Shown here piece by piece: positions 1-16,920 of a stretch of 43,263 nt of DNA (its first letter is position 1; every line of letters starts with the position of its first letter). Under the pieces are notes generated by a model. The model saw nothing but the letters and a program-made list of their open reading frames with translations. It had not been told where the DNA came from and made no database searches. Position numbers and translations under genes: made by a program. This stretch comes from Gemmatimonadota bacterium (GTDB taxonomy: Bacteria; Gemmatimonadota; Gemmatimonadetes; Gemmatimonadales; GWC2-71-9): contig QHUT01000074.1 in the NCBI GenBank assembly GCA_003222055.1, positions 1 through 43,263 of the forward strand. Direction: 5' to 3'.

Positions 1-390
1 TTGCGCTACGCCGCCAAGCTGCTGCGCCATCACGCGATCGTCGTGGTGCTGTCGGATTTCCGGGCCGACGGGTGGGAGGACGCGCTGGCGCAGCTGGCCG
101 CCGCCAACGACGTGGTCGCGATCACGATCGACGACCCGCGCGAGCTCAACCTGCCCGATACGGGCTGGGTGGACATGGAGGATGCCGAAACCGGTCAGCG
201 GGTCCTGATCGACACGAGCCACGCCCCCACCCGCACGCGGGTCCGGGTCGCCGGGGAGCGCCAGCTGCAGGAGCGCGGCCGCAAGCTGCTCCAGGCCGGC
301 GTGGACCGCGTCGCCCTGCAGACGAGCGTTCCCTACGCGGTGCCCCTGCGCCGCGCGTTCGCCGAGCGCGCCAAACGCCTGAAACGATGA
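1..390 (+). CDS. DUF58-family protein, C-terminal part (cut by window edge)
   Basis: The frame is open from the first base, so the true start lies upstream of the window; the TTG at base 1 is just where the window begins. The visible 129 residues resemble the C-terminal half of DUF58 proteins, with a buried strand (IVVVLSDF), a helix, a second strand (VVAITIDDP), then a conserved-looking DTGWVDMEDAETG segment. DUF58 genes normally lie beside MoxR-type AAA+ ATPases and Bat/VWA genes, and here the next four genes are of that kind. The stop overlaps the next start as ATGA (387-390), which implies translational coupling. Family assignment rests on a fragment plus context. Confidence 0.75.
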   Translation: MRYAAKLLRHHAIVVVLSDFRADGWEDALAQLAAANDVVAITIDDPRELNLPDTGWVDMEDAETGQRVLIDTSHAPTRTRVRVAGERQLQERGRKLLQAGVDRVALQTSVPYAVPLRRAFAERAKRLKR

Positions 391-1280
391 AGTCACGTTG
401 CACGACGCTACGACGCCACGTTGCACGGGGGACCGCCCTGGTTGCCGTGCTCGCGATCCTTGGCGTCGTGGCGTCGTGGCGTCGTGGAGCGGCTCAGAGC
501 GCGACCTGGACCGCTAGTCCCGCAACGCGCACCGTCGGCGACACGATCTGGCTCGAGCGGGAGATCCCGGTACCCGCTGGCTGGCAGGTGCGGGCCGGCA
601 AGCTCGAGGCGCGGGAGGACGTAGAGCCGCTGGGCGACCCGGCCGTGCTGCGGAGCCGCGCGGGCTGGGTGGTGCGCTATGGCGTCGCCGTGTGGACGCC
701 GGGAAGCCACACGCTCACCCTGCCGCCGCTCTGGCGCATCGGCCCGGATGGGCGCACCGACTCGACCGCCGGAGGTGCGGCGAGCTTTGCCGTGGCGAGC
801 GTGATCCCGGACACGTTGAAGACGCCCGACCCGCGCGGGCCGCTCGGACCGTTGCGGCTGGGGCGGCGCAATGCGGGGCCGCCGCTCGTCGCGGCGCTCG
901 TCGCGCTCGGACTGCTCGCGGCGGGCGTCGCCGCGCGGCGCCGGCCGCCGCGCGAGGTCCCGCCCGCGCCTCCCGCTCCACTGGAACGTGAGGTGCCGGA
1001 TGCGCGCTGGCTCGCCGCCGGCGAGCCGCGGGCCGTCGCCACGCGGGCGACGTGGCGGCTGCGCGCCGCGCTGGCGCGCGTGGTGCCGGGAGCCCATCTC
1101 GCGCTGGCCACTCCCGAGTGTCTCGCGGTGGTCGAGCGGGCGCGGCCGGCGGCCCCGATTGGCCAGCTGCGCGACGTGCTGGAACGGCTCGATCGTGTCG
1201 CCTTCGCCACCGCCGCGGGCTCGGACGTCGCGGCGCTCGCCGCGCAGGCGCGCCGCCTGGCCCAGGAGCTCGCGCCCTGA
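387..1280 (+). CDS. Bat-operon membrane-anchored protein with signal peptide (function unknown)
   Basis: The product is 297 residues and starts at an ATG overlapping the upstream stop. Residues 1-37 look like a signal peptide: a basic n-region with RRHVARG, then a hydrophobic run ending LGVVASW and a small-residue site near GAAQS. Residues about 38-150 look like a beta-rich periplasmic domain. A transmembrane segment follows at about 165-185 (LVAALVALGLLAAG), then an arginine stop-transfer cluster and a helical cytoplasmic tail of about 110 residues. The position between DUF58 and BatA matches the small DUF4381-like proteins of other Bat loci, but I recognise no family with certainty. The signal-peptide codons lie inside an inverted repeat also present at 16448-16537. 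Confidence 0.75.
   Translation: MKSRCTTLRRHVARGTALVAVLAILGVVASWRRGAAQSATWTASPATRTVGDTIWLEREIPVPAGWQVRAGKLEAREDVEPLGDPAVLRSRAGWVVRYGVAVWTPGSHTLTLPPLWRIGPDGRTDSTAGGAASFAVASVIPDTLKTPDPRGPLGPLRLGRRNAGPPLVAALVALGLLAAGVAARRRPPREVPPAPPAPLEREVPDARWLAAGEPRAVATRATWRLRAALARVVPGAHLALATPECLAVVERARPAAPIGQLRDVLERLDRVAFATAAGSDVAALAAQARRLAQELAP
394..487. repeat. Inverted repeat of 8-nt units encoding a signal peptide (copy 1)
   Basis: The left arm (394-426) carries CACGACGCTACGACGCCACG flanked on both sides by ACGTTGCAC. The right arm (461-487) carries three copies of GGCGTCGT, the reverse complement of the left-arm unit. About 34 nt separate the arms. The whole element is in frame and encodes the signal peptide of the gene starting at 387. 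A closely similar element lies at 16448-16537. Confidence 0.8.
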
Positions 1281-2257
1281 GCTTCGCCCGGCCCCTCGTC
1301 CTGCTCGCCCTGGGCGTGCTGCCCCTGTGGTGGTGGCTGCGGATGAAGCGGCTGGCCCGGTTGTCGGGGACGCGCATGAGCGATGTGCGCCCGGCGGCGG
1401 GGGCGACCGAGCGTCTCTGGATCGCGCGCCTCCCCGTCACCCTGCGGAGCGTGTGCCTGGCCGCGTGGATCGTCGCGGCGGCGGGTCCCCGGATCGGGTC
1501 GGCCCGCTCGGAGACGCACACCGAAGGCATCTCGATCGTGCTCGGCATCGACATGTCGAGCAGCATGCTCGCCGAGGATTTCGCTCCCGCCAACCGCATC
1601 GATGTCGCCAAACAGACCGCGATCGAATTCGTGCGGGCGCGGACGTCGGACCGCATCGGCCTCGTGGCCTTCGCCGCCCAGGCGCTCACCCAGGTCCCGA
1701 TCACGACCGACTACGCGGTGCTGGAGCAGGCGCTCAAGGGACTCCGCATCGGGATGCTGGAGGACGGCACGGCAATCGGCACGGGCATCGCGACGGCCGC
1801 GAACCGGCTGCGGCGCGCGCCCGGCAAGAGCAAGGTGATCGTGCTGCTCACCGACGGGGTGAACAACCGCGGGACCGTGGATCCGCGCACGGCGGCGCAG
1901 GCGGCGGCGGCGCTGGGGATCAAGATCTACGTGATCGGCGTAGGGAAGCGCGGCGAAGCCCCCGTCCCGACGGGACAGGGACTCGAGGGCCTGCGCTATC
2001 AGATGATGCCGGTCGAGATCGACGAGCCCCTGATGACCGAGATCGCGTCGATGACGGGCGGCCGTTACTTCCGCGCCACCGACGCCCAGTCGCTGCGCAA
2101 CGTGTTCGCCGAGATCAACCGGCTCGAGAAGACGCCGGTGGAGCAGGTGGTGTATCGGCGGTTCGACGAGGCATATCGGACGCCGCTCGCCCTCGGGCTG
2201 GTGGCGTTGGCGCTGGAGATCGTGCTCGCGGGCACCTTCGCCGTCCGGGTGCCCTGA
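1277..2257 (+). CDS. batA: BatA-like VWA-domain membrane protein (probable CTG start)
   Basis: BatA proteins are inner-membrane VWA proteins of the Bacteroides aerotolerance (Bat) system. The product here is about 326 residues. It has an N-terminal membrane segment (FARPLVLLALGVLPLWWW), a second one (VCLAAWIVAAAGP) and a VWA domain from about residue 87 with the metal-binding DMSSS motif. Later VWA strands include VIVLLTDGVNN, and a C-terminal membrane helix (LALGLVALALEIVLAG) follows. There is no ATG, GTG or TTG at the family's N-terminus: the nearest, GTG 1316 and ATG 1343, would cut into the first helix. CTG 1277 overlaps the upstream stop as CTGA, with AGGAG at 1264-1268, 8 nt upstream. 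The start is therefore inferred; family assignment is firm. Confidence 0.87.
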   Translation: MSFARPLVLLALGVLPLWWWLRMKRLARLSGTRMSDVRPAAGATERLWIARLPVTLRSVCLAAWIVAAAGPRIGSARSETHTEGISIVLGIDMSSSMLAEDFAPANRIDVAKQTAIEFVRARTSDRIGLVAFAAQALTQVPITTDYAVLEQALKGLRIGMLEDGTAIGTGIATAANRLRRAPGKSKVIVLLTDGVNNRGTVDPRTAAQAAAALGIKIYVIGVGKRGEAPVPTGQGLEGLRYQMMPVEIDEPLMTEIASMTGGRYFRATDAQSLRNVFAEINRLEKTPVEQVVYRRFDEAYRTPLALGLVALALEIVLAGTFAVRVP

Positions 2258-3921
2258 TGGCGTTCGACGCTCCGGTCGTGCTCGCCGTCGCGCCGCTGGT
2301 CGGCGGCGCCGTGTGGTTCGCGGCCGCGTGGGCGCGCCGGGTGCGCATCCGCCGGGCGGCGCTGTGGTCCGAGGAAACCGTGCGGCGTGCCCTGGGCGCC
2401 GGGCGGCTGGGCCCCACCGCGCTCGCCGTGGCGGCGTTCCTCGGCGTCGTGGCGCTGGCGGGCCCGCGCTGGGGCGAAGCGACGATCGTGGCGGAGACCC
2501 GCGCCCTGTCGGTCGTGATCGCGATGGACATTTCCCGCTCGATGCTCGCGGAGGACGCGAGCCCCAGCCGGCTGGGCCGGGCCCTGCGTGAAGCGCGCCG
2601 GCTCGTGCAGGACCTCGACGGCGATCGGGTCGGCCTGCTGGCATTCGCCGGCTCGAGCTACATCCTCTCCCCGCTGTCGATCGACGGCTCCGCGCTCACG
2701 CTCTACCTCGATGCGCTCGATCCCGAAGTCGCGTCGCAGGGAGGGACGGGACTGGCGGGCGCGCTGCGCCAGGGAGGCGAGCTGCTCCGGGCCAGCTCCG
2801 ACCTCGCCGACCGCGTCCTGGTGGTCTTCACCGACGGCGAAGCGCACGATACGCTTGGCGCGGTGACCGAGCAGGCGCAGCAGCTCCGCGCCGCGGGAAT
2901 CAAGCTGATCCTCGTCGCCGAGGGCGGACGCACGCCCAGCCGCATCCCGGTGCGTGACGAGCATGGAACGCTCCTCACCTACCAACGGGACGAGGAGGGG
3001 AGCGTCATCCAGACGGCCCGGCGAGACGAGGTGCTCGGCGCAGTCGCGGACGCGGCGCAGGGCACGCTCGTGGCGGCGGACATCCCCGATCAGGCCGGGG
3101 CCGTGCGCGACCTCGTCGCCTCCTACCGGCGCGCCCGCGCGAGCGAGGCGCGCACCGAGCAGGGGAGGCTGCGCGCCTGGCTACCGCTGCTCGTCGCCGT
3201 GGCGCTGCTCGTCACGCAGGCGGCCACGCGCCGCACTGCGGCACTCATCGGGATCGCGCTGTGGTGTCTCCTCCCACCGCCCACCCCGGCCCAGCAGCCC
3301 GCCCGGCCCCGCAGCTCCGCGGAGAAGGCCTGGGACCGCCACGACCTCGCGGGTGCCCGCGCCGCGTATCTGGCCGAGCTGGCCGCGCGCCGCACGGACG
3401 ACACGGCGTGGTATAACGCCGGCACCGCGGCGCTCGCGGACTCGGACGCGGAGACCGCGCGGGGGAGCCTCACCCACGCCGCGGCGTCGCTCGACCCCGA
3501 CGTGCGGTTCCGCGCGCTCTTCAATCTCGGCTTGCTCGCGTTGCGCCAGGCGATGACGGACAGCGCGGCGCGCGAGTCCCGTCTCGCCGACGCCGAGCGG
3601 GCATACCGTGAAGCCCTGCTGCTCCGGCCGCACGACCTCGGCGCCAAGTGGAACCTCGAGCTGGCCGTTCGCCGCCAGCACGGCGGCACCAGCCGGAGCA
3701 ACCCGCCCTCCGGGGGCAGTGGCGGCGGCGGGCCTCAGAGCGCCGGCGGCGGGGGATCCGGCCGGGGACGCTCCCAGGGCGGCGCCGGCGTGCAGGGCGG
3801 CATGAGCCCGGCGCAGGCGGACGAAGTGCTGCGCTCGATCGGCCAGCAGGAGCTCAAGACCCGACGGGACCGCACCGGGCAGACCCGCCGCGCCGTCGAG
3901 CCCGGCGTGAAGGATTGGTGA
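2257..3921 (+). CDS. batB: BatB-BatC fusion: VWA-domain membrane protein with TPR tail
   Basis: The product is 554 residues; its ATG shares one base with the batA stop (TGATG). Residues 1-60 hold two membrane segments. A VWA domain follows with the MIDAS motif DISRS near residue 88 and later strands (VLVVFTDGE). Membrane helices lie at about 309-322 and 327-342. From about residue 355 the protein continues into TPR-like helices (AWYNAGTAALAD, RALFNLGLLALR, AYREALLLRP), then a glycine/serine-rich linker and a basic tail. In many genomes the VWA part (BatB) and TPR part (BatC) are separate genes; here they form one frame. The fusion suggests the TPR scaffold sits on the outer face of the membrane. 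Confidence 0.87.
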   Translation: MAFDAPVVLAVAPLVGGAVWFAAAWARRVRIRRAALWSEETVRRALGAGRLGPTALAVAAFLGVVALAGPRWGEATIVAETRALSVVIAMDISRSMLAEDASPSRLGRALREARRLVQDLDGDRVGLLAFAGSSYILSPLSIDGSALTLYLDALDPEVASQGGTGLAGALRQGGELLRASSDLADRVLVVFTDGEAHDTLGAVTEQAQQLRAAGIKLILVAEGGRTPSRIPVRDEHGTLLTYQRDEEGSVIQTARRDEVLGAVADAAQGTLVAADIPDQAGAVRDLVASYRRARASEARTEQGRLRAWLPLLVAVALLVTQAATRRTAALIGIALWCLLPPPTPAQQPARPRSSAEKAWDRHDLAGARAAYLAELAARRTDDTAWYNAGTAALADSDAETARGSLTHAAASLDPDVRFRALFNLGLLALRQAMTDSAARESRLADAERAYREALLLRPHDLGAKWNLELAVRRQHGGTSRSNPPSGGSGGGGPQSAGGGGSGRGRSQGGAGVQGGMSPAQADEVLRSIGQQELKTRRDRTGQTRRAVEPGVKDW

Positions 3922-6302
3922 TGCTCGCGCTCTGGGTGCTCGCCGCGCTGCAGACCGGGCCGGCACCCGACGTCACGGCGCGGGTGGACCGCTCGCACGT
4001 CACCGCGGGTGACGACCTGCTGCTCACGATTCGCGCCCGGACGCGATCCGCCGCCCCGGTGACCCTGGCCCTCCCGGCGCTCACGGGATTCACGGTCGTC
4101 GGGTCGCGCGAAGTCACGGAGGTGACGCTCGAGGCGCTCGGCGGCCCGGTGCGCACGACCACCCGCGAGCTCGAGCTGCGGGCGCAGCGCCCGGGCGCGT
4201 TGGTGATCGGACCGGTGCGGGTCGAGCAGGGTGGCCGGCGGGTCACGACCGCCGCGCTGACCGTCACCGTGGACAGCGCGAGGGCGGGGCTCGCCACCGC
4301 CGTGTCGCCGATCGCGCGACGGCTGATCGAGGCGGCCACGCCGCCCACCCACGATGAGAAGGGGGACCAGGTCGGACTCAGCGTGCTCCTCCCCGGCGAC
4401 TCCGTGCTGGTGGGCCAGCAGCTCGACGTGCTCGCGGTGGCGTGGTTTCCCCGCGAGCTACGCGCGCGCCTGCGGCGCGCGCCGATTCTCACGTTGCAGA
4501 CGCCGGAAGGTGTCTGGTCGTATCCTGGTGCCGCGCCGAGCGAGGTCGTCGCCTCGCGCCTCGTGCGGGGACGCTGGCTCGATCTGTTCGTCGCGCACGA
4601 GGCCGTGTTTCCCCTCGCTCCCGGCCGCATCTTCATTCCGCCCGCCACCGTCGAGTACGCGGTGCCGGCCACCTTCTCGTTCTTCAGTCGCGAGGAGCAG
4701 TATTCCCTGCGGAGCGATACAGTGCCCGTGCACGTGCTGCCGCTGCCGGGAGCGCCGGCGGCGGCGGGCGATCCGCCGGCAGTCGCACAGGGGCTCACGC
4801 TCGACCTGCGGCTCGATCCGCCCAATGGCCGCGTGGGCGAGCCGATGGCCGTGACGGTCACGCTGACGGGAGTCGGGAACGTGGCGCTGTGGCCCGAGCC
4901 CGCGATCGCCTGGCCGCCGGGGTTTCGCTCCTATCCCGGGGAGACGGGCACGCGCATCGAGGCGCGCGATGGGCGCATCGCGGGAGCGAAGACGTTCCGT
5001 TATCTCGTGATGCCGGACTCCGCGGGGTCGTTCCAGCTGCCGGCGGTCCGCTATCCCTACTTTGACGTCGCGTCGGGCGACCCGGCCACCGCCGCCCTCG
5101 CTCCGCGCGTGCTGATGGTGGCGGCCGGACTCGAGTCCCGGGCGCCCCGGGCGCTCCCGCCGCTCGCGCGCGGGCGTGGTCCGGTCTGGACGGACGAGCT
5201 GGCCCACGACCTCGTCCCGTGGGGATGGCTCGTGCTGTTCGTGGGCCCGCCGCTCCTCGCCTGGCTGTGGCGCCGCCGCCGGCCGGCGGCGGCGCTGCGC
5301 GTCGTCGTCGCCGCGCCCGCTCCGCTGAGCCGGATCGGCCGGGCGGAACGGGAGTTCCACGCGCTGCTCGCGAGCCACGTCCCGGACGCCGAGGCACGCG
5401 ATGGCGACGGACTGGGCCGCGCGCTGCGCGCCGCGGGCGTCGAGAGCCCCGTCGCCGATCACGTCATGCGGTTGCGGGATCGGCTGCGCGCGGCCAGGTA
5501 CGGTCCGCGCGCGCCCGGCGACGCGGCGCAGCTTGCATCGGAGCTGGAGCAGGTGCTGCGGGTCCTGGGAGGCGATCCGGCCCGGACGGGACGGCGTGGC
5601 CGGGAGGGCCGGGTCGTGGCCGCCGCGGTCCTGACGGCCGCGGCGTGCGCGGCGCTGGGAGCCGTGGCGCGGCCGGTCGCCGCTCAGGCGCTCGGCGCCG
5701 AGGCGTTGTACGAGGCGGGGGCGCTGCGCGCCGCGGCCGATTCCTTTGCCGCGCGCGCCGCGGCTCAACCACGCGTGCCCGCGCATTGGTACAACCTGGG
5801 CGCGACGCTGTATCGGGCCGGGGCGGACGGCAAGGCGAGTGCGGCCTGGGCCATCGCGGCCCGGCTCGCGCCGCGGGACGAAACCGTGCGACGTGCCCGC
5901 GAGCTGCTTCCACCCCCCGACGCCCCCAGCGAGCCGCTGTTCGTCGTCGGGTTCGCGACCCCCGGTGAATGGGCCCTCGTGGCCGCCGTGTTGTGGGGCG
6001 CCATGTGGATGGTCGCCGCCGGCGGGCGCCGACGAGTGGTTCTCGCCACCGTCGCGCTGGCCACGGCTGCGACGGCGGGGCTGGCCGTGCGGGAGGCACT
6101 GCGGCGGGGCCAGCCCGTCGCGATCGTGGTGCATCCCGCGACGTCGGTGCGCGTGGCGCCGTACGGCAGCGCCAGCGCCGCGGCGACGGTCGAAGCCGGC
6201 GCCGCGCTGCTGGTCGATCGGGCGTTCGGCGGGTGGCTCGAGGTGCATCGCCAGGACGGAGTACGCGGCTGGGTGCTCGCGGCCGAAGTGACCCGGCTGT
6301 GA
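3921..6302 (+). CDS. batD: BatD-BatE fusion: aerotolerance protein with TPR and SH3-like tail
   Basis: The product is 793 residues and starts at the TGATG junction with batB. It opens with a short signal-like segment, then BatD-type Ig-like domains (VTARVDRSHVTAGDDLLLTI, residues 17-36) and further beta-sandwich modules to about residue 400. A membrane helix lies near 430-450 (WLVLFVGPPLLAWLW), followed by a helical cytoplasmic region. From about 590 to 660 there are TPR-like helices (AHWYNLGATLYRAG), two more membrane helices at about 682-722, and a final SH3b-like domain (about 732-793; VAPYGS, GWLEVHRQDGVRGWV). TPR plus SH3 is the composition of BatE, so this looks like a BatD-BatE fusion. 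It is the last gene of the Bat operon; mutL overlaps its stop. Confidence 0.82.
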   Translation: MLALWVLAALQTGPAPDVTARVDRSHVTAGDDLLLTIRARTRSAAPVTLALPALTGFTVVGSREVTEVTLEALGGPVRTTTRELELRAQRPGALVIGPVRVEQGGRRVTTAALTVTVDSARAGLATAVSPIARRLIEAATPPTHDEKGDQVGLSVLLPGDSVLVGQQLDVLAVAWFPRELRARLRRAPILTLQTPEGVWSYPGAAPSEVVASRLVRGRWLDLFVAHEAVFPLAPGRIFIPPATVEYAVPATFSFFSREEQYSLRSDTVPVHVLPLPGAPAAAGDPPAVAQGLTLDLRLDPPNGRVGEPMAVTVTLTGVGNVALWPEPAIAWPPGFRSYPGETGTRIEARDGRIAGAKTFRYLVMPDSAGSFQLPAVRYPYFDVASGDPATAALAPRVLMVAAGLESRAPRALPPLARGRGPVWTDELAHDLVPWGWLVLFVGPPLLAWLWRRRRPAAALRVVVAAPAPLSRIGRAEREFHALLASHVPDAEARDGDGLGRALRAAGVESPVADHVMRLRDRLRAARYGPRAPGDAAQLASELEQVLRVLGGDPARTGRRGREGRVVAAAVLTAAACAALGAVARPVAAQALGAEALYEAGALRAAADSFAARAAAQPRVPAHWYNLGATLYRAGADGKASAAWAIAARLAPRDETVRRARELLPPPDAPSEPLFVVGFATPGEWALVAAVLWGAMWMVAAGGRRRVVLATVALATAATAGLAVREALRRGQPVAIVVHPATSVRVAPYGSASAAATVEAGAALLVDRAFGGWLEVHRQDGVRGWVLAAEVTRL

Positions 6303-7858
6303 CGGTGCAGAGCGCCGTGCGGATCGCCGTACTGGCTCCCCAGGTGGCCGATCAGATCGCGGCCGGCGAAGTCGTGGAGCGGCCCGCCTCGGTCGTGAAG
6401 GAGCTCGTCGAGAACGCGCTCGACGCGGGTGCGCGGGCGATCCGCGTGGAGATCGAGGACGGCGGAAAGAGCCTGATCCGGGTGAGCGACGACGGCGAGG
6501 GGATGGGCCGCGCCGACGCGGAGCTGGCGCTGTCGCGCCACGCCACGAGCAAGATCCGCGAGGCCGCCGACCTGATCGGGGTCGGCACGTTCGGATTCCG
6601 GGGCGAGGCGCTGCCCGCGATCGCCTCGGTTTCCCGGTTCGAGCTCGAGACCTCGCCCGACGGCGTCACCGGCACGAGGCTGCGGCTCGTCGGGGGCAAG
6701 CGCGAAGCGGTCGACGACGTCGTGCGCCAGCGGGGGACGACGGTGACGGTGCGTGCCCTGTTCTTCAATACGCCCGCGCGCCGCAAGTTCCTGCGGGCTC
6801 AGGCGACGGAGACCCGCGCGGTCGCGGAAGCCGTCACGCTGCTGGCGCTGACCCGTCCCGAAACCGCGTTCACGCTGTCGAGCGACGAGCGCACGCTGAT
6901 CGACGTGCGCCCCGCGGCCGGTGCCATCGAGCGCGTCGCCGCGCTGTGGGGCGGGGCACTCGCCGACACGCTGCTCCCGATTGCCCATCGCGAGGGCCCG
7001 CTCGAGGTGCGCGGATTCGCCCAGCGTCCCGCGCAGGCGAAGCCTACCGGCCGGAAAGGCTACGTGTTCGTGCGCGGCCGGCCGGTCCGCGACCCGTTCA
7101 TCGTGCGCGCGGCCGAGGCCGGCTACCGCTCGACGCTCGCGCCGGACGACCGTCCCTCGGTGATCCTGTTCCTGGATCTGCCGGGGGACGCGGTGGACGT
7201 GAACGTCCACCCGTCGAAGCTGGAGGTGCGGTTCCGCGACAAGTTTTTCGTGGAGAAGGTGGTGCAGGAGGCGGTGCGGGGGGCGCTGGGGCCCCTCACT
7301 GCGGCGGCTCCACTAGGGGTTGGGGGTCAGGGCGTGGGGGTTGGGGGCTCATGGGCTGGCGTCGGCTTGCCCCCAAGCGCACCCCAGGAGCTGTTCGGCT
7401 CGGAATCCCTAGCCCCTAGCCCCCAACCCCTAGCCCCTCTCCTTCAAGTCTTCGACACCTACATCCTGTTCCAGTCCGACTCCGGAGTTGCGATCGTGGA
7501 CCAGCACTCGGCGCACGAGCGTGTGTTGTACGAGCGGGTGATGCGCCAGCTCACCGGCGACGGCGCACCGGCGCAGCGGCTGCTGCTGCCGCTCACGCTC
7601 GACTTTTCGGGCCCCGAGCTCGTCGCCGATCTCGCGGGTGGACGGTTCGGCGCGCTCGCCAACCGGCTGGAGCGCTTCGCAGCGACGTTCGCCTGTCGCG
7701 CGGCCATCAAGGCGGGCCAGCGGCTCGACGGAGAGGAGATGCGCGAGCTCGTGGTCCGCTTGCTCGGCGCGACGCTGCCGGCTCACGACGTGCACGGGCG
7801 ACCCACGATCGTACAGCTGCCCAAGGGCGAGCTGGAGCGGAGATTTGGGCGATCCTGA
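6299..7858 (+). CDS. mutL: DNA mismatch repair protein MutL
   Basis: MutL couples mismatch recognition to strand incision. The start is the GTG of a GTGA overlap with the BatD stop, giving 519 residues. The N-terminal GHKL ATPase shows ENALDAGA (near 38), DDGEGM (near 64) and GFRGEAL (near 98), then RKGYVFVRGRPVRD and VDVNVHPSKLEVRF. The C-terminal domain keeps an endonuclease-type motif, DQHSAHERVLYE, near residue 400, as in MutL of bacteria lacking MutH. The normal C-P-H-G-R-P motif reads D-V-H-G-R-P near residue 499, so one expected zinc-ligand cysteine is absent. The linker is short and encoded largely by G- and C-rich inverted repeats (7313-7438), which explains the modest length. Confidence 0.95.
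   Translation: MTVQSAVRIAVLAPQVADQIAAGEVVERPASVVKELVENALDAGARAIRVEIEDGGKSLIRVSDDGEGMGRADAELALSRHATSKIREAADLIGVGTFGFRGEALPAIASVSRFELETSPDGVTGTRLRLVGGKREAVDDVVRQRGTTVTVRALFFNTPARRKFLRAQATETRAVAEAVTLLALTRPETAFTLSSDERTLIDVRPAAGAIERVAALWGGALADTLLPIAHREGPLEVRGFAQRPAQAKPTGRKGYVFVRGRPVRDPFIVRAAEAGYRSTLAPDDRPSVILFLDLPGDAVDVNVHPSKLEVRFRDKFFVEKVVQEAVRGALGPLTAAAPLGVGGQGVGVGGSWAGVGLPPSAPQELFGSESLAPSPQPLAPLLQVFDTYILFQSDSGVAIVDQHSAHERVLYERVMRQLTGDGAPAQRLLLPLTLDFSGPELVADLAGGRFGALANRLERFAATFACRAAIKAGQRLDGEEMRELVVRLLGATLPAHDVHGRPTIVQLPKGELERRFGRS
7313..7438. repeat. Inverted repeat of CTAGGGG/TTGGGGG units in the mutL linker
   Basis: The left arm (7313-7349) contains CTAGGGGTTGGGGG and a degenerate second copy; the right arm (7407-7438) contains CCCTAGCCCCTAGCC followed by CCCAACCCCTAGCCCC. 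The arms are complementary over about 20 nt with mismatches and about 57 nt lie between them. The tract is in frame and encodes low-complexity Gly/Val and Ser/Pro/Leu linker residues between the ATPase and C-terminal domains. Confidence 0.8.
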
Positions 7859-8831
7859 GACCCCGCCCCTCACTCCCGTGCTCGTCGGTCCGACCGGCGT
7901 CGGCAAGACGGCGGTGGTCGCGGCGTGGGGGGCGCTCGAGCCCATCACGGTCGTCTCCGCGGACGCGCGCCAGGCGTACCGCGGCCTGGACATCGGGACC
8001 GCGAAGCCGCCGGGCGCGCTCCTGGCCCGCGTGCCGCACGTGGGCCTCGACGTGGTCGAGCCCGGCGAGCGCTACAGCGCGGGGCGATTCGCAAGCGACG
8101 CGGCGGCGTGGCTGGCCGGGATCCGCCGGGCCGGCCGCCAGCCGGTCGTGGTGGGCGGAACCGGGTTCTACGTGCGGGCGTTGGCGGAGGGACTGTTCCA
8201 CGAGCCGCCGCTCGAACCCGCTCGTCGCGAGCGGCTGCGCGCCTGGACGGCGCGATTGCCGGCCGCGCGGCTGGCGCATTGGGCGGCGCGCCTCGACCGC
8301 CGGTTCGCGGGGGGCGGGCGGCAGCGGGCGGCGCGTGCGATCGAGGTGGGGCTGCTCACGGGGCGCGGGCTGAGCTGGTGGCAGGAGCACGCGCGCGCGG
8401 TCGGCGCGATGCGTCCGTGGTACATTCATCTGACGCTGCCGCGCGATGCCCTCGAGCGGCGGATCGCCGAGCGGGTGGACGCGATGCTCGCGGCGGGGTT
8501 CGTCGACGAGGTCCGCCGCACCCTCGACCGGCCCGTCGGCCCGGACTCCCCGGGGCTGGACGGCGTGGGGTACCGCGAGGTGGTGGCCATGCTTGCGGGC
8601 CGGCTGCCGGAGCGGGGGCTGCGGGACGCGATCGTGGTGGCGACGCGCCGGTACGCGAAAAGACAAGAGACGTGGTTCCGAAATCAGCTGCGGGACGAGG
8701 GACGGGGGACGCGGGAGGGGTCGGTCTGGACACTCGATGCGGTGGAGGTGCCCGACGTGCTCGCTGCACGAATCGTAGATCGCTGGCACGCCGTTACCCG
8801 TCCCTCGTCCCCCATCCCCCGCCCCGTCTGA
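7845..8831 (+). CDS. miaA: tRNA dimethylallyltransferase MiaA
   Basis: MiaA adds a dimethylallyl group to the N6 of A37 in tRNAs that read codons beginning with U. The start is TTG at 7845, 14 nt inside mutL, with GGAG about 8 nt upstream, giving 328 residues. Visible motifs are the P-loop GPTGVGKT (about 14-21), DARQAYRGLDIGTAKP, where most homologues have D-S-x-Q, GGTGFYVRAL, and VGYREV. The last 30 or so residues are encoded by G/C-rich repeat sequence (8692-8720 and 8797-8829) and end in a proline/serine-rich tail unlikely to be conserved. The gene lies directly after mutL, a common pairing in bacteria. Confidence 0.95.
   Translation: MGDPETPPLTPVLVGPTGVGKTAVVAAWGALEPITVVSADARQAYRGLDIGTAKPPGALLARVPHVGLDVVEPGERYSAGRFASDAAAWLAGIRRAGRQPVVVGGTGFYVRALAEGLFHEPPLEPARRERLRAWTARLPAARLAHWAARLDRRFAGGGRQRAARAIEVGLLTGRGLSWWQEHARAVGAMRPWYIHLTLPRDALERRIAERVDAMLAAGFVDEVRRTLDRPVGPDSPGLDGVGYREVVAMLAGRLPERGLRDAIVVATRRYAKRQETWFRNQLRDEGRGTREGSVWTLDAVEVPDVLAARIVDRWHAVTRPSSPIPRPV
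8692..8829. repeat. Inverted GGGACGAGGGACGGG repeat at the 3' end of miaA
   Basis: The left arm (8692-8720) contains GGGACGAGGGACGGG followed by further GGGGAC-like units. The right arm (8797-8829) contains CCCGTCCCTCGTCCC, its exact 15-nt reverse complement, followed by degenerate C-rich units running to the miaA stop. Both arms are coding. The units resemble the G-rich tracts at 33981-34011 and 35578-35608. Confidence 0.78.
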
Positions 8832-8832
8832 C

Positions 8833-11556: not shown

Positions 11557-12302
11557 CGCTCGACGGCGTTCCCGCCGCCGATCTCGCCCTGCGCTGGGGC
11601 GTCCCGCAATGCGGCTTGTTCCGCCAGCTCGGCTCGACGCTCGACGCGCTCCACGACCTGGGCGCGCAGGGCGCGGCTGTGGGCACCGCCGTGATCGCGG
11701 AGGAGCAGACCGCGGGCCGGGGCCGCGACGGGAGAACCTGGCACTCGCCCGCCGGCGGCGTGTGGCTCGGCGTGCTGCTGCGTCCCGCGCGCGTCGAGCT
11801 GGGCGTGATGTCCGTGCGCGTCGGACTCGCGGTAGCGGACGCGGTCGATGCGCTGCTGGGACGTCCCGAGGTCCGTCTCAAATGGCCCAACGACGTGCTG
11901 CTCGCGGAGCGCAAGCTCGGCGGTATCCTGTGCGAGGGGCGCTGGCAAGGCGAGGCACTGCAATGGCTGGCGGTGGGGGTGGGCGTAAACGTGTGCAACC
12001 CAATCCCCGGCGCCGTGGCCCGCCACGCGGTGGCGCTCGCCGAATGGCTCCCCGCGGTGCGCCGCATCGACCTGCTGGATCGCCTGGTGCCGGCGCTCGC
12101 GCGGCTGACGGGAGCGACCGGTGTGGCCGCGCTCTCCGAGCGCGAGTGTGCGGCATTCGCGGCGCGCGATTGGCTGCTCGGCCGTCAGCTGCGCGCGCCC
12201 GCTGCGGGGCGGGCGCGCGGCCTCCGCCCCGACGGCGCGCTGCTCGTTGATCTCGGGGCGGCGACCATCGCGGTGCGGGAGGGACATGTGGAGCTAGCCT
12301 AG
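11544..12302 (+). CDS. birA: Biotin-[acetyl-CoA-carboxylase] ligase BirA, no HTH domain
   Basis: The product is 252 residues and starts with GTG inside the end of uppP. It shows the biotin-ligase core: EEQTAGRGRDGRTWHSPAGG with the biotinyl-AMP-binding GRGR loop, KWPNDVLL, RKLGGIL, and VGVGVNV. The C-terminal SH3-like domain is present but short. There is no N-terminal winged helix, so this is the monofunctional type that only attaches biotin to acetyl-CoA carboxylase and does not repress biotin genes. birA followed by coaX is a common order; here a reverse-strand gene separates them. Confidence 0.93.
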   Translation: MARLALDGVPAADLALRWGVPQCGLFRQLGSTLDALHDLGAQGAAVGTAVIAEEQTAGRGRDGRTWHSPAGGVWLGVLLRPARVELGVMSVRVGLAVADAVDALLGRPEVRLKWPNDVLLAERKLGGILCEGRWQGEALQWLAVGVGVNVCNPIPGAVARHAVALAEWLPAVRRIDLLDRLVPALARLTGATGVAALSERECAAFAARDWLLGRQLRAPAAGRARGLRPDGALLVDLGAATIAVREGHVELA

Positions 12303-12308
12303 AAGGCC

Positions 12309-12671
12309 TTACCGCCCTCGGGCGCCTAGCGACCTATACAGTCGCCACGTCAGAAACCCCGCGCGTCTTCGCAGATCCTCCAACGTTTCCCACTGTCCGC
12401 TCGACAGCATCTTGAGTTCTCGTGCGACGCGAAACGCGTACCCGAGTTCCGCCAACGAACCGATGGAGATGTCGAGAAACCGCCGATACTCTAGCGCCCC
12501 GTGTTTAGCTGATCCCTCGACGATGTTCGCGGCAGCCGAAAACGCAGCCCGTCGCGTCTGGGATGTCAACCCGTAGAGCTCCTCTCTCGGGAACGACCTC
12601 GTCGCCCGGTAAGTCTCAAGCACGAGCTTGTGACACTCCTGCCATGCTTTGAGTCGCTCATAGGGTGGCAT
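12309..12671 (-). CDS. Four-helix-bundle protein (23S rRNA intervening-sequence type)
   Basis: The product is about 120 residues and begins PPYERLKAWQECHKLV, with the family hallmarks YGLTSQTRRAAFSAAANIVEG and a later SLAELGYAFRVARELK. These match the small four-helix-bundle proteins first found encoded in intervening sequences of 23S rRNA and since found as free-standing genes; their function is unknown. I chose ATG 12671 because the family begins at the PPYERLK region; a TTG at 12680 would add three residues. The local base composition is visibly less GC-rich than its neighbours, and the gene is alone on the reverse strand between birA and coaX, both suggesting acquisition. Confidence 0.9.
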   Translation of the reverse strand: MPPYERLKAWQECHKLVLETYRATRSFPREELYGLTSQTRRAAFSAAANIVEGSAKHGALEYRRFLDISIGSLAELGYAFRVARELKMLSSGQWETLEDLRRRAGFLTWRLYRSLGARGR

Positions 12672-12760
12672 GCTTACCAACGTACCGTGAGTATTCCGGA
12701 CGGTCGCATCATTTCATTGCAAGTGGTGCCCAAAAAACGCGGTCAGACGTGATCTGGCGC

Positions 12761-12800
12761 CCTCTACCGCCCTCTACCATCCTCTACCGCCCTCTAGCAT
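12761..12800 (+). repeat. Four tandem decamers CCTCTACCGC upstream of coaX
   Basis: Four exact-length 10-nt units run head to tail: CCTCTACCGC, CCTCTACCAT, CCTCTACCGC and CCTCTAGCAT. The last unit contains TAGCAT (12795-12800), 11 nt before the coaX ATG, which could serve as a -10 box. The array would then fill the -35 region, so copy number could influence expression; that is inference. Confidence 0.75.
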
Positions 12801-12811
12801 CTTCTTGCCCC

Positions 12812-13591
12812 ATGCTCCTCGCCATCAACATCAACAACACGGAAACCAAAGTTGGTCTGTTCCGGGGTGACAGCCTCGAGTCCCACTGGCGGCTGACCAC
12901 CACCCCGCAGCGCACGCCGGACGAGTGGGCGTCGACCCTCACGTCGTACCTCGCCCAGGCGGGGCGTTCCACCCAGGAGGTCCGCGCGGCGATCGTCGCG
13001 TCCGTGGTGCCGCCCGTGACGCAGGGGTTGTGCGAAGCGGTGGAGCGCGCGACGACGGTGGCACCCGCGGTGGTGGACGGCCGCTCCAAGCTGCCCATCA
13101 CCCTCGACGTCGAAGAGCCGCTGCAGGTCGGCGCGGACCGCATCCTCAACACCCTCGCCGCCGCGCAGCTGTTCCACCGCGACACCATCGTCGTCGACTT
13201 CGGCACGGCCACGACCTTCGATTGCATCACCGCGGACGGGCACTTTCTGGGCGGCGTGATCATGCCCGGGATCCGCACGGCCTCGGACGCGCTCATCCGG
13301 GGTACCGCCAAGCTACCCGCCACCGATCTCGCCCCGCCGACACGCACGATCGGGCGGCGCACCGACGAGGCGATCCGCGCGGGCGTGCTGCTCGGCACGG
13401 CCGACGCGGTCGACGGTCTGGTCCGCCGCATCAAGGCCGAGTGGCCGAACGGCAAGGCTCCCCACGTGATCGCCACCGGCGGTCTGGCGAGCCTGGTCGC
13501 GCCGCTGGCGCGGGAGATCGAGGCCGTGCATCCGGACCTGACCCTCACGGGACTGCGGATCGCAGCCGGGGCGCTCGGGCTGAAGTGGTAG
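12812..13591 (+). CDS. coaX: Type III pantothenate kinase CoaX
   Basis: CoaX phosphorylates pantothenate in the first step of coenzyme A synthesis and belongs to the ASKHA fold. The product is 259 residues from ATG 12812. Motifs are ININNTETKVGLFRG at the N-terminus (phosphate-binding loop), GADRILNTLAAAQL, the second phosphate motif VDFGTATTFDCI, and FLGGVIMPGI. Length and motifs match the bacterial family. There is no clear Shine-Dalgarno sequence; a TAGCAT box 11 nt upstream suggests a very short or absent leader. Confidence 0.94.
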   Translation: MLLAININNTETKVGLFRGDSLESHWRLTTTPQRTPDEWASTLTSYLAQAGRSTQEVRAAIVASVVPPVTQGLCEAVERATTVAPAVVDGRSKLPITLDVEEPLQVGADRILNTLAAAQLFHRDTIVVDFGTATTFDCITADGHFLGGVIMPGIRTASDALIRGTAKLPATDLAPPTRTIGRRTDEAIRAGVLLGTADAVDGLVRRIKAEWPNGKAPHVIATGGLASLVAPLAREIEAVHPDLTLTGLRIAAGALGLKW

Positions 13592-14505
13592 CCGACGCCC
13601 GGGCGCTCACCTTCTGGCGCCGCTGGGGCTACCGGCTGCTGCCGGGGGACCTGTTCTCCTACGTGCTGCACCTGCGCCCCGCCGAGTGGCCCATCATGGC
13701 GGGGCATACCATGGTCGGCTACGTCCTTGCGGTGGGTTTCTCCGGCCTGGTGCGTGGTGCGCGGTTGTGGCAGGCGCTGGGCGGCCTCGCGATCTGGGTG
13801 GTCTTGCTCAACGGCGGCACGCTGGCCATCAACTCCGTCTTCGACAAGGACGAGGGCGACATCGGCTACCTGCACGCGCCACCGCCGATACCGCGGCACC
13901 TCCTCGCCTTCAGCGCGGTGCTGCTCGCCGGCGGTCAGCTGCTGAGCTTCGCGCTCCCGCCCGCCTTCCGGATCGATTACGCGATCTGTCTCGTGCTCTC
14001 GATTCTCTATTCCGTACCGCCGTTCCGGTTCAAGGCGGTGGCCGGTGTGGACTGGGTGATCAACATGTGGGGCTTCGGGACGCTCACGCCGTTCGCCGCG
14101 TGGGCCGCCACCGGCCGGCCGCTCGACATGGGGCACGCACTCGTCCTGCTCGGCTTCTGCCCGCTGTTTGCGGGGCTCTATCCGCTCACCCAGCTGTATC
14201 AGATGGACGAAGATCGCCGCCGCGGCGATCGCACCCTCGCGCTCATGCTCGGGATGCGCGCCAGCCTGGCCGTGGCGATCGCGTGCACCGTGCTGGCGTT
14301 CGCGCTGTTCGCTTGGGCCGCGGCGTTGTTGTGGGTGCGCGCGTGGCTGCTGGTCGTGCCGCTGATCATGTGGCTCGCGCTGCTCGGGCCTTGGTACGCA
14401 CGCCGCGACGCGCTGTCGGCCGTGGCCCAGCAACGCGGCATGTACCGGGCGCTCGGCGTATGGGCCATCACCGATCTCGTGGTGCTGTTGGTGTTTGCCC
14501 GGTGA
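13585..14505 (+). CDS. UbiA-like prenyltransferase family membrane protein
   Basis: The product is 306 residues if the GTG at 13585, inside the end of coaX, is used. After a soluble N-terminal stretch of about 45 residues there are eight or nine hydrophobic helices. Two acidic motifs sit where UbiA enzymes bind prenyl diphosphate: NSVFDKDEGD and YQMDEDRRRGDRT. They deviate slightly from the usual N-D-x-x-D-x-x-x-D, so the substrate is unclear. It is the second UbiA-type protein in the window but little like the one at 9953 outside the motifs. Downstream lies a separate promoter at 14495-14524. Confidence 0.78.
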   Translation: MVADARALTFWRRWGYRLLPGDLFSYVLHLRPAEWPIMAGHTMVGYVLAVGFSGLVRGARLWQALGGLAIWVVLLNGGTLAINSVFDKDEGDIGYLHAPPPIPRHLLAFSAVLLAGGQLLSFALPPAFRIDYAICLVLSILYSVPPFRFKAVAGVDWVINMWGFGTLTPFAAWAATGRPLDMGHALVLLGFCPLFAGLYPLTQLYQMDEDRRRGDRTLALMLGMRASLAVAIACTVLAFALFAWAAALLWVRAWLLVVPLIMWLALLGPWYARRDALSAVAQQRGMYRALGVWAITDLVVLLVFAR

Positions 14506-14524
14506 GAGACCAGGCGCTTAGATT
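14495..14524 (+). promoter_or_regulatory. Predicted promoter TTGCCC-N18-TAGATT
   Basis: A -35-like TTGCCC (14495-14500) and a -10-like TAGATT (14519-14524) are spaced by 18 nt, ending about 45 nt before ATG 14570. The implied leader of about 40 nt includes GAAGGAG at 14554-14560. This contrasts with the leaderless-looking promoters elsewhere in the window. Confidence 0.5.
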
Positions 14525-14569
14525 TCCGCCAGGCCAGCTCCACCCCGCTGCTTGAAGGAGACGCGACGC

Positions 14570-15184
14570 ATGTCGGCCACGGCGGCACCCGCTCCGGACC
14601 GTTCGGACTTCCGCACCGTCACGATGGGCGGTGTGTTGATAGGCGTCGTGACGGGCGTTGCCGTCGTGCTCGTCGTTGCCGCGTCGCGCACGCTCACGGC
14701 TGGCGTCGCGGTGGGTGGCGTGCAGGCCCTGGTGGTGCTCGCGGCGGGAGTCGTGGTTGCCTTTCTTCCGGCGCAGTGGACCGCGGCGCGAGGGACCGAG
14801 GGCATCGCCGGCGCCGCCGCGGTGGGCCTGGTGGGTACGGTCGTATTCAGCGCGATCGACATTGTGCTGCTCCGGCCCTTCAAGGCGTACCCCTGGACGT
14901 GGGATGCAATCGGCGGCGGCAGCACCTGGTGGTATCTCCCGGTGTGGTGGATGCTGGGCACCTTCCTCGCCTGGATGGGCGGCATCGTGACGGCGGGCCA
15001 GGCCGCCCGGGGAGCAGAGCAGGCGACACTCGGCCGCTGCGCCTTGCCCGCCGTCGCCGGCGCGCTCGTCGTGGCGGCGATCGCCCGGCTCGCCCTCGCC
15101 GTCTCGCTCCCCGCCGTCACGGGCGGCGCGTTCACCATCGTCGTCGCGGCGCTCGGCCTCGTCGCCCTCACCCGCAAGGGATAG
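14570..15184 (+). CDS. Multi-pass membrane protein, unknown function
   Basis: I recognise no family. The start is ATG 14570, preceded by a strong GAAGGAG at 14554-14560 with 9-nt spacing; an upstream TTG at 14552 lies before that site and is unlikely. The product is 204 residues with about five or six hydrophobic helices (GGVLIGVVTGVAVVLVVA, VVLAAGVVVAFLP, AAAVGLVGTVVFSAIDIVLL and others) and a tryptophan-rich loop TWDAIGGGSTWWYLPVWW. The helix pattern resembles Yip1/YIP-type small membrane proteins only loosely. The next gene starts 17 nt after its stop, suggesting co-transcription. Confidence 0.75.
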   Translation: MSATAAPAPDRSDFRTVTMGGVLIGVVTGVAVVLVVAASRTLTAGVAVGGVQALVVLAAGVVVAFLPAQWTAARGTEGIAGAAAVGLVGTVVFSAIDIVLLRPFKAYPWTWDAIGGGSTWWYLPVWWMLGTFLAWMGGIVTAGQAARGAEQATLGRCALPAVAGALVVAAIARLALAVSLPAVTGGAFTIVVAALGLVALTRKG

Positions 15185-15201
15185 CGGGTCGGACGGGCGA
15201 C

Positions 15202-15486
15202 GTGCCCCGCTGGCTCGCCCATCTCCTGGTCGCCGTTGGGTGGCTGCTCACGCCGGTGCTGGCATGGGCCGCGTCCTACGTGGGGCTCTGGGCCGGCGCA
15301 CTGCTCGCTACCCGGTTCACCAATCCCCTGACGATGCTCGGTGTGGCCGGTGCCGCCGCCGCGCTGTGCGGGTTCACGTCCCTGGCCATCTGGGTGCGCT
15401 TCATGCGCCGGGTGCCGCATCTGTTGTCGCATCACATGGCGCCGCGCGCGTCGGAGGAGCACCGCGCTGTTGCGGCCGCTGACTGA
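15202..15486 (+). CDS. Small two-helix membrane protein, unknown function
   Basis: The product is 94 residues from GTG 15202. Two hydrophobic segments are visible (LAHLLVAVGWLLTPVLAWAA and MLGVAGAAAALCGFTSLAIW), followed by a basic, histidine-rich C-terminus. There is no recognisable family. It lies 17 nt after the previous membrane protein, and the start of the NlpC/P60 gene lies within its last codons, so it appears to be part of the same transcript. A long overlapping frame makes the coding call less certain than for its neighbours. Confidence 0.6.
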   Translation: MPRWLAHLLVAVGWLLTPVLAWAASYVGLWAGALLATRFTNPLTMLGVAGAAAALCGFTSLAIWVRFMRRVPHLLSHHMAPRASEEHRAVAAAD

Positions 15487-16447
15487 AGGCTCGTGGCTGG
15501 GGCTGCTGCTCTTGCCCGCGACGCTGGCGGGGCAGGGACGCGGCCTGGAGCTCCATCTGGGCCGCTGGTACAACGGCAATCGTGCCGACGTCTATGAATT
15601 CCGGACCAGCTCGCCCGTAGGGGGACGGTTCAGCCACGGGTTCGGCGCGTCGGTGCTCGTGAACGACTCGCTCGGCCGGCGACGCGCCTTCTACGGGCTC
15701 GGGTACGAGCTCCAGGCGTGGCGCGGCCGAGCCACGCTCGGACCCTATGCGCTCGCCGGCGTGGCGCTCGGTCTGTCCACCGACCCCGCGACCCAAGAGG
15801 TCGCCGCCCAGTGGAGCCTGGGTGGTGGAGTCGAGTGGCGGCCGCTCGGATGGCTGGCGCTGGGGACGGAGGTCCGCTACCGGCTCGAGGATCGGGGGCC
15901 CCGCGGATTTTGGAATCCACGCAGCGACGCGCGTAGGGGCGTGAGCGCGGTGTTCGGCGTTTCGGTGGGAGGGGGAAGGCGCGGCGGGGGACGCGGCCGG
16001 GGCGGGTACGGCGGTCCGCCCGAGCTCCCGCCCGCAGCGCCACCCACGACGATCGGCGGCAACGCCGGCGACGTGGTCCAGACCGCCATCGAATCGCTCG
16101 GGACCCCGTACATCTGGGGCGGGACGGCGGACAACGGGTTCGATTGCTCCGGACTGATTCAATACGCCTACGGTCAGCACGGGATCCGCTTGCCGCGCAT
16201 GAGCCGCGATCAAGCCCGCGCCGGCGCCGAGGTCGCCCCCGTCGTGGACGCGCTCCGCCCCGGTGACGTGCTGCTGTTCTCCGCGCGTCCCGGAGCGGGC
16301 GTGACGCACGTCGGGATGTACGTCGGGGAGCTCAAGTTCATCCACAGCTCGAACCGAGGCGTGAAGCTGTCGCGCCTGGATCCTCAGGACCCCGAGGGGG
16401 CGTACTGGCTCGACCGCTGGGTGGGGGCGCGGCGGATCATCCCGTGA
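15470..16447 (+). CDS. Secreted NlpC/P60 peptidase with N-terminal beta-rich domain
   Basis: The product is 325 residues from TTG 15470, preceded by GGAGGA at 15453-15458. A signal peptide (WLGLLLLPATLAGQG) is followed by about 150 residues of alternating polar/hydrophobic strands with many glycines and aromatics, resembling an outer-membrane-type beta-barrel, then a Gly/Arg/Pro linker (about 165-200). The C-terminal NlpC/P60 domain has its catalytic cysteine in FDCSGLIQYAYG (Cys226), histidine in THVGMYVG (His280), and a further FIHSS. Such enzymes cut D-Glu to diaminopimelate or similar peptidoglycan stem-peptide bonds. The barrel-like part is inference from pattern only. Confidence 0.85.
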   Translation: MRPLTEGSWLGLLLLPATLAGQGRGLELHLGRWYNGNRADVYEFRTSSPVGGRFSHGFGASVLVNDSLGRRRAFYGLGYELQAWRGRATLGPYALAGVALGLSTDPATQEVAAQWSLGGGVEWRPLGWLALGTEVRYRLEDRGPRGFWNPRSDARRGVSAVFGVSVGGGRRGGGRGRGGYGGPPELPPAAPPTTIGGNAGDVVQTAIESLGTPYIWGGTADNGFDCSGLIQYAYGQHGIRLPRMSRDQARAGAEVAPVVDALRPGDVLLFSARPGAGVTHVGMYVGELKFIHSSNRGVKLSRLDPQDPEGAYWLDRWVGARRIIP

Positions 16448-16920
16448 CACGTTGTACGACGCCACGACGCCACGTTGCAAGAGGGCTCGCATGGACGCGT
16501 CTTGTCGTGGAACTTGGCGTCGTGGCGTCATGTAACGCTCTCGTCGTTAGCTGCGCCCCCGCCACTCGGTACGAGCCCCCGGATGCGCTGCGGGGCTATG
16601 AGATCCTCGTCACGAGCCAGGATTCGCTCGGTCGGGGGATCGCGCAGGGGCTCGCGCGGCGGGGCTTCCGGGTGCGGAGTCGCGTCCGGGGCGGCGGCCG
16701 CCCGACGGCGTACCTCGTCGCCTTCATATTCCGGGAAACCGAGCCCCCGGCGCTCACCTGGCTGCACGTGCGGCTCGCCGACACGCGCACTGGGGCGATC
16801 GTCGCGGCGGTGTCGGCCCCGCTCGACTCGCTGGGCCCGAGCGCGGAGCAGCGGGCCCGGGCGATCGTCGACTCGTTGGCGGCGAACCCGGCGCTGCGCC
16901 GAGCCCTCGCACCCACTTGA
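16444..16920 (+). CDS. Putative lipoprotein, unknown function
   Basis: The product is 158 residues from the GTG of a GTGA overlap with the NlpC/P60 gene. The N-terminus (TRCTTPRRHVARG) is basic, followed by a hydrophobic run ending LGVVASCNALVVSC; either cysteine could be a lipobox, the second (LVVSC, then APAT) being the better fit. The mature part, about 120 residues, is a small mixed domain (YEILVTSQDSLGRGIAQGLA; TWLHVRLADTRTGAIVAAV) reminiscent of envelope lipoproteins that sense or assemble, but I recognise no family. The signal-peptide codons are made of an inverted repeat shared with the gene at 387. Confidence 0.75.
   Translation: MTRCTTPRRHVARGLAWTRLVVELGVVASCNALVVSCAPATRYEPPDALRGYEILVTSQDSLGRGIAQGLARRGFRVRSRVRGGGRPTAYLVAFIFRETEPPALTWLHVRLADTRTGAIVAAVSAPLDSLGPSAEQRARAIVDSLAANPALRRALAPT
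16448..16537. repeat. Inverted repeat of 8-nt units encoding a signal peptide (copy 2)
   Basis: The left arm (16448-16480) contains ACGACGCCACGACGCC flanked by CGTTG-type ends; the right arm (16501-16537) contains GGCGTCGTGGCGTC flanked similarly. The arms are complementary over nearly 30 nt with a few mismatches and are about 20 nt apart. They encode the n-region and h-region of the lipoprotein's signal peptide. Copy 1 is at 394-487. Confidence 0.8.

Follow-up and report, generated by a model that had tools for sequence, protein, structure and literature searches.

A dispersed palindromic repeat of a Gemmatimonadota genus that lies in frame at gene starts and probably becomes part of signal peptides

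The 43,263-nucleotide (nt) stretch analysed here (the window) is contig C116 of G000, a 3.69-Mb draft genome of a Gemmatimonadota bacterium. It carries two copies of a palindromic repeat, at the 5' ends of genes that start at 387 (gene 1) and 16444 (gene 2). We found that the repeat is dispersed through the genus and lies in frame at the starts of five unrelated genes for apparently exported proteins, with Sec-, lipoprotein- and twin-arginine translocation (Tat)-like N-termini. The sequence of the copies, their dispersal, the polymorphism between orthologues and the open frames were observed directly. They suggested that the repeat probably fills slots that tolerate insertion and that, at tight junctions ahead of genes for exported proteins, it becomes part of the signal peptide.

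The element and its two copies in the window

The element had arms of about 33 nt, made of ACGACGCC-type 8-mers, on both sides of a variable loop. The consensus from 16 copies read CGTTGCACGACGCCACGACGCCACGTTGCACGA, then the loop, then TCGTGCAACGTGGCGTCGTGGCGTCGTGnAACG. Most copies were 55-130 nt long and were built of 8-nt units, and the ends of the element read CGTT.../...AACG. An integron attC site was considered and dropped; the end boxes of the element stand in the opposite order to those of attC. The pattern ACGACGCCACGTTGCA with up to three mismatches gave seven matches in the window, all within or bordering the two copies, where 0.93 were expected and none of 100 shuffles reached seven. 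An Rfam scan of the window gave no match at the gathering score.

Both inverted repeats that a sequence-only reading had placed at these gene starts were recovered by cmsearch with the covariance model R1. Copy 1 covered 396-491 on the forward strand (fold z -5.55). Its left arm at 396-428 (CGT TGC ACG ...) read as RCTTLRRHVAR, a basic n-region, and its right arm at 459-491 (..GVVASWRRGA) had one additional 8-nt unit. Copy 2 covered 16450-16537 on the same strand (fold z -4.63). Both genes overlapped the open reading frame (ORF) upstream. The TGA at 388-390 of the first upstream ORF (1-390, forward, end only) overlapped the ATG of gene 1 as ATGA at 387, and copy 1 began 5 nt past this stop. 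The TGA at 16445-16447 of the second (15341-16447, forward) overlapped the GTG of gene 2 as GTGA at 16444, and copy 2 began 2 nt past it. Gene 1 (387-1280, forward, 297 amino acids) had an element-derived N-terminus that read MKSRCTTLRRHVARGTALVAVLAILGVVASW, and that of gene 2 (16444-16920, forward, 158 amino acids) read VTRCTTPRRHVARGLAWTRLVVELGVVASC. Our own gene caller, a home-made codon-statistics model, placed the starts later, at 447 and 16522. The hydrophobic core of gene 1 was coded mainly by the loop (TALVAVLAIL), and the right arm contributed GVVAS. In this detail the copy differed from the sequence-only reading, which had assigned the hydrophobic region to the right arm.

The first 35 residues of the two proteins are similar, which could mean that the genes are paralogues with a common old N-terminus. 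This is almost certainly wrong, as the sequence-only reading had expected, since the mature parts were dissimilar beyond the repeat, element-free orthologues of each gene had different N-termini, and the same repeat was intergenic elsewhere. Pfam gave no family for either gene or for two further fused genes (sites 8 and 20, below), and an early guess that gene 1 is BatD-like was not supported.

Orthologues with and without the element

The element was present at gene 1 in 7 of the 10 genomes of the genus. The frame was open in all seven, and each had an uncharged 10-residue window with a mean hydropathy of 2.4-3.2 after a net charge of +2 to +7, with the residues changed. G003, G005 and G009 lacked the element (e.g. 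MTALAGLLLLQVGGWVATPPRPTVGD); their N-termini were short and hydrophobic and held no inverted repeat in excess of shuffles. Named records with gene 1 were the Gemmatimonadetes metagenome-assembled genomes AG20, AG49 and AG37. Outside the genus, gene 1 was matched in 22 of 29 genomes searched. All 15 inspected of these 22 had a short hydrophobic stretch ahead of the mature part, and none of the 15 had an inverted repeat that exceeded shuffles, which kept base composition only. From these 15 we conclude that the short element-free signal is ancestral. A three-gene tree, in which genes 1 and 2 were themselves included, placed G000 and G009 as sisters (support 92). These sisters differed in the gene 1 element, present in G000 only, so alleles were lost or exchanged.

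Gene 2 is likely to encode a lipoprotein, because the Cys that precedes AP was kept in 10 of 10 orthologues. Its element was found in G000, G009, G005, G008 and G004, degenerate in the last two, and the frame was open in all five. G003, G002 and G007 had shorter, element-free, lipoprotein-like starts, and G006 and G001 had other inserted sequence. As a separate observation, GGCAACGCC repeats occurred in the gene 2 signal region of L091 (G006), L092 (G001), L093 (G003) and L095 (G002), and they may be another repeat family.

In-frame starts at other genes

Copies of the element were fused in frame to gene starts in six locus groups: gene 1, gene 2, sites 8, 15 and 20, and a PAP2 membrane protein. 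All except the PAP2 protein looked exported from their N-termini. At both window genes and site 8 the left arm was read as RCTTPRRHVAR or near variants, which are basic, and at sites 15 and 20 as VTRRHDA or near variants. The right arm was read as (L)GVVAS, or as variants such as GVLAS and NVVAS, in genes 1 and 2 and sites 8 and 15. The N-terminus of site 8 was MVSRCTTPRRHVARSTRTAVRAGALVWLGVLASWNAVSAQ. There the element was open in frame from an upstream ATG in G000, G005 and G009; the G007 copy was shortened with an ATG within, and G004 and G001 retained recognisable right-arm residues. Site 15, a CcmH gene by Pfam, had the N-terminus SRRDFLTLGAGSFLGVVASW. Its loop was a twin-arginine-like motif, SRRDFLTLGAGSF, which occurred in similar form in orthologues with other arms. 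At site 20 the hydrophobic core ATLLLLPLLAGRAEA was the gene's own and lay downstream of the element. The PAP2-family fusion may be old, because the element at its start was shared with a different genus (G024, L150 2084-2153).

A start also faced a copy in 11 other groups. In these the start was either past the copy or among its final 8 nt, with no evident exported protein; one G003 member of group 14 marginally passed a crude hydropathy test, which its orthologues failed. For the contrast (5 of 5 vs 1 of 12), a one-sided Fisher test gave a probability of 0.001, with the grouping made post hoc.

The sequence-only reading had described the repeat as, in effect, a portable signal peptide. In-frame occurrence at five exported-looking genes, polymorphic between species, agreed with this; the idea that the element confers export did not hold. 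Orthologues without the repeat had different signals. Because these orthologues have signals of their own and also look exported, the element appears to alter existing export signals and not to create export. In addition, palindromes as such had little tendency to yield signal peptides in simulation. Hydropathy was anticorrelated between complementary codons in the in-register frame (r = -0.47), and yet simulated inverted repeats were hardly more signal-like (tandem-unit arms 1.09%, non-tandem arms 0.72%) than direct repeats (0.74%) or random sequence (0.75%). A composition-matched shuffled right arm gave 1.57%. On this basis we rejected a general tendency of inverted repeats to encode signal peptides.

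Distribution and genomic placement

The 11-mer ACGACGCCACG had 57 exact matches in G000, compared with 3 for the reversed control, and a looser 20-mer (up to three mismatches) had 53, compared with 8. A covariance-model search found the element in every genome of the genus (10 of 10) and, beyond it, in 3 of 31 from the family and order (G028 weakly). The repeat is thus dispersed, as had been supposed, and the family is nearly confined to one soil Gemmatimonadota genus. A separate observation in G000 was a pair of arms in opposite orientation in L001 (C7, 1495-1999), about 475 nt apart around a 120-residue ORF (MGDFKELRAWQEAKEL...), which resembled inverted ends.

We followed 84 places. They came from among the listed ones of 183 strand-doubled matches, the weakest left out, and from the G000 pattern matches, and were kept at an R1 E value of at most 0.001. 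Real single arms that failed this cut (e.g. L007, L013, L048 and L049) and chance-level pattern matches were excluded. Homology of flanking genes joined the places into 26 locus groups by single linkage on any common flanking protein, with at least 29 distinct sites. Group 7 held three G000 places (two of them mutY and aroB), group 4 held two G009 places, and L115 and L116 of G005 were possibly one locus split over two contig ends. Six groups were occupied in 5-7 genomes each, and many copies therefore look old and inherited, with losses.

Of the 84 places, 33 overlapped no called gene, 18 overlapped one by at most 15% of their length, 16 by more, and 17 lay fully within a gene. Since 51 places thus overlapped called genes by 15% or less and some copies lay within housekeeping enzymes, the element is not mainly a signal-peptide module, contrary to what the window alone had suggested. 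A total of 49 places began 1-5 nt past a called stop codon, convergent pairs among them, and the group median was within 11 nt of a called stop in 21 of the 26 groups.

This placement would also follow if the element were merely a stop-proximal hairpin of the upstream gene, that is, a terminator or an mRNA 3'-end stabiliser like repetitive extragenic palindromic (REP) sequences, with an incidental overlap with signal peptides and a secondary coding role. The 49 places and the strong folding of five copies fit such a hairpin, and REPs are described downstream of genes (PMC3733652). The arms of one element, in contrast, differed by 8.2 mismatches in 28, and arms across groups by 8.1 (77 elements; G-U pairs were ignored and simple unit offsets only were compared). 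This absence of excess complementarity speaks against a selected hairpin. Comparisons of orthologous pairs gave 53 two-sided arm changes; maintenance by compensatory change was rejected because the arms of one element paired no better than arms across groups. Moreover, copies lay within tgt, mutY and aroB, and at least two groups (10 and 13) sat between divergent genes. We regard the hairpin as a possible but doubtful explanation.

Movement of the element by a REP-associated tyrosine transposase (RAYT, Y1 type), as for REP, was also considered. Y1_Tnp genes were found in 6 of the 10 genomes of the genus. The other four, two of them more than 90% complete, carried the element without Y1_Tnp, and none of the six Y1 loci examined (of 16 matches) had the element in its flanks. 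Such a transposase is a highly improbable mover.

Copies inside enzymes and exchange of repeat families

The element lay in frame within tgt (Pfam TGT) in G000, G005, G006 and G009. The tgt of G003 had four residues where the element-bearing forms had about 28, so that tgt was polymorphic for presence and absence between orthologues, as were genes 1 and 2. In mutY of G000 a single arm lay in frame with the length unchanged compared with G001, G007 and G008, and mutY of G009 and G006 had the same residues as the G000 arm. Another single arm lay inside aroB of G000.

At four loci (the tgt loop and sites 8, 15 and 20), the place of the element was taken in other species by different inverted repeats, made of 7-8-nt units. 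The replacing families were of the GACGGAAN, GGCGGTC/GGCGGAC, GCGGAAC/GCGGATT and CGGAAGGT types. They scored 12-24, compared with shuffle maxima of 9-12 (30 shuffles of that region, again by base composition only). G002 scored under the shuffle maximum at site 15 and tgt, and G008 at site 20 was barely above it. No other inverted repeat was found in tgt of G001, G003 and G007, and the degenerate element-bearing alleles of gene 1 in G004 and of gene 2 in G008 and G004 did not exceed shuffles. With these exceptions, the same position is reused by different repeat families.

In a further idea, what disperses would be an arm built from 7-8-nt units and not the entire hairpin, and the arm and its inverted partner would be written on either side of host DNA. 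One arm family at a site could then be swapped for another while the enclosed host stretch, such as the Tat-like motif of CcmH, would stay. We hold this idea tentatively and think it unlikely.

Start codons and the strength of the signal-peptide reading

Several points weigh against the reading of the element as part of signal peptides. First, compact junctions alone predict stop adjacency: 68% of insertions would fall within 11 nt of a stop if junctions were chosen evenly, compared with 9% at random noncoding positions. Tight junctions account for much of the adjacency, and stop-codon targeting is not claimed as a proven specificity. Second, starts were assigned partly from expected export, so the contrast between fused and unfused copies is non-independent as well as post hoc. 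Third, signal-likeness was judged from crude hydropathy and charge alone (thresholds: hydropathy 2.2, charge +1). These thresholds were passed by 11 of 17 element-bearing N-termini (gene 1, 7 of 7; gene 2, 2 of 5; site 8, 1 of 2; site 15, 0 of 2; site 20, 1 of 1) and by 9 of 43 called window genes. None of the six element-free forms of genes 1 and 2 passed, which makes the measure a poor judge. R and E also break up the hydrophobic stretch of gene 2. Fourth, differences by codon position (positions 1, 2 and 3) were fairly even in the element part of gene 1 (0.20, 0.26 and 0.34, vs 0.19, 0.16 and 0.42 in the remainder), and a similar flattening was found in gene 2, site 1, site 8 and tgt. The element-coded part is thus loosely constrained, which fits signal peptides and loops and would fit partly untranslated sequence equally well. 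Finally, over the 20 places in the five exported groups, our own caller located the start upstream of the element in 3, within it in 8 and downstream of it in 8, and left one uncalled.

These calls are what would be expected of an annotation artefact, in which translation truly begins inside or past the element and leaves most of the repeat untranslated. The ATG in the shortened left arm of G007 at site 8 points the same way, and Di Nocera et al. voice a similar caution about REPs (PMC3733652). The caller, however, takes the start with the best codon score; it penalises any atypical segment and tends to trim it whether translated or not. A start past the element would also strip site 8 and gene 1 of a signal that is seen in their element-free orthologues. 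In addition, the ATGA or GTGA overlap was kept, the frame was open in all seven gene 1 and all five gene 2 orthologues with the element, and the tgt copy lay inside an enzyme. We consider an artefact rather unlikely. We prefer the upstream starts, since the later ones would delete the signal at gene 1 and site 8 and since the overlap of stop and start is retained; this preference is argued and not measured.

Other inverted repeats in the window

Further inverted repeats lay within or between genes of the window, with 6 scoring at least 14 compared with 0-3 in five block shuffles. At 7313-7433, an inverted repeat of CTAGGGG/TTGGGGG units lay in an ORF that we take to be MutL-like, apparently in its linker. 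At 8691-8826, a GGGACGG-type inverted repeat lay in the 3' portion of a presumably MiaA-like ORF, and its right arm coded the C-terminus. Single arms of the GGGACGG type were found at 33981-34014, at the C-terminus of an ORF that we assume to be kinase-like, and at 35578-35611, within a presumed UvrD-like helicase ORF. An array of TGTGCGTC octamers with an inverted partner (22114-22279) lay at the stop of an upstream gene and extended into the following ORF at its 5' end, and an array of CCTCTACC decamers (12758-12805) stood directly ahead of a gene start.

Discussion

Under the favoured reading, a palindromic family would occupy places that tolerate added DNA: just past stops, in loops of enzymes and at N-termini. 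In compact operons with ATGA or GTGA overlaps, a copy past one stop would land in the opening codons of the gene that follows. Ahead of a cytosolic protein, the start codon would then lie past the copy or in the copy's final bases. Ahead of an exported protein, the copy would be translated. The left arm, as RCTTPRRHVAR or VTRRHDAT, would extend the basic n-region, the right arm, as (L)GVVAS, would supply a hydrophobic part, and the loop would provide the remainder. Selection would keep the basic-then-hydrophobic order while the exact residues drift. Translation, export and selection as the filter are the parts of this reading that we infer.

Contrary to the sequence-only reading, which was aware of no bacterial repeats described as having this property, a precedent was found in Yersinia. 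RU-2/YPAL, like RU-1 and RU-3, is a small mobile repeat of enterobacteria (Delihas 2007; PMC2759123, PMC2229807). In Y. pestis YPO1552, RU-2 is described as forming a portion of the predicted signal peptide, and the signals of relatives are given as unrelated (PMC2759123). RU-2 and the element are alike in being small, dispersed repeats, similar to miniature inverted-repeat transposable elements, that are read in frame. They are set apart by description: RU-2 is 168 bp long and has its own cluster of hydrophobic residues, whereas both arms and the loop of the element contribute, at five loci, in Sec-, lipoprotein- and Tat-like contexts and in another phylum. The Rickettsia palindromic elements (RPE), compared by description, are likewise palindromic, on a 100-nt scale, and both intergenic and in frame in conserved enzymes (PMC2229807); they belong to another phylum. 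The open-licence literature searched gave no paper that joins 'Rickettsia palindromic element' with 'signal peptide'. The element matched this coding-palindrome kind (RPE and RU-2) in that it was dispersed, lay both between genes and in frame within them, and was present in some orthologues and absent from others.

REPs of the GTAG and CGTC types are also described as palindromes near stops and sometimes within genes; they differ in being 20-40 bp long with tagged ends, the GTAG type being tied to RAYT (PMC3733652), whereas the element is longer and no Y1 link was found for it. It agreed with REPs as a short palindrome near gene ends in many copies, though longer than 20-40 bp, and inspection of the copies by eye gave no GTAG tag common to its ends. 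Cyanobacterial STRR are direct arrays of 7-nt-scale units at gene boundaries. The heptamer tandem repeats (TAACTGA; PMC4679880) resemble the element as 7-nt-scale arrays at gene boundaries; they are described as direct arrays, often near start codons, and differ in having no paired inverted arms. PARCEL (PMC2996958) is a palindromic coding repeat tied to membrane-targeted proteins, and it differs as a 25-residue tandem protein domain outside the signal peptide in that description. In the open-licence literature searched, the element was not named in Gemmatimonadota. Repeats in signal peptides were thus already known from Yersinia RU-2; the recurrence at five genes, the several export classes and the exchange of families at fixed sites are new.

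If arms are indeed written around host DNA, the junctions and signal peptides of this genus would be standing slots, filled by different families in each species, and signal peptides would be rewritten. As a rule, signal peptides are cleaved off and tolerate a wide choice of basic-then-hydrophobic sequence. They would be a natural refuge for repeats, one that can be traced at five genes. At the same genes, alleles with the element, without it, with another repeat in its place and of the ancestral form make up a comparative series for how dispersed DNA can turn into a working part of a protein.

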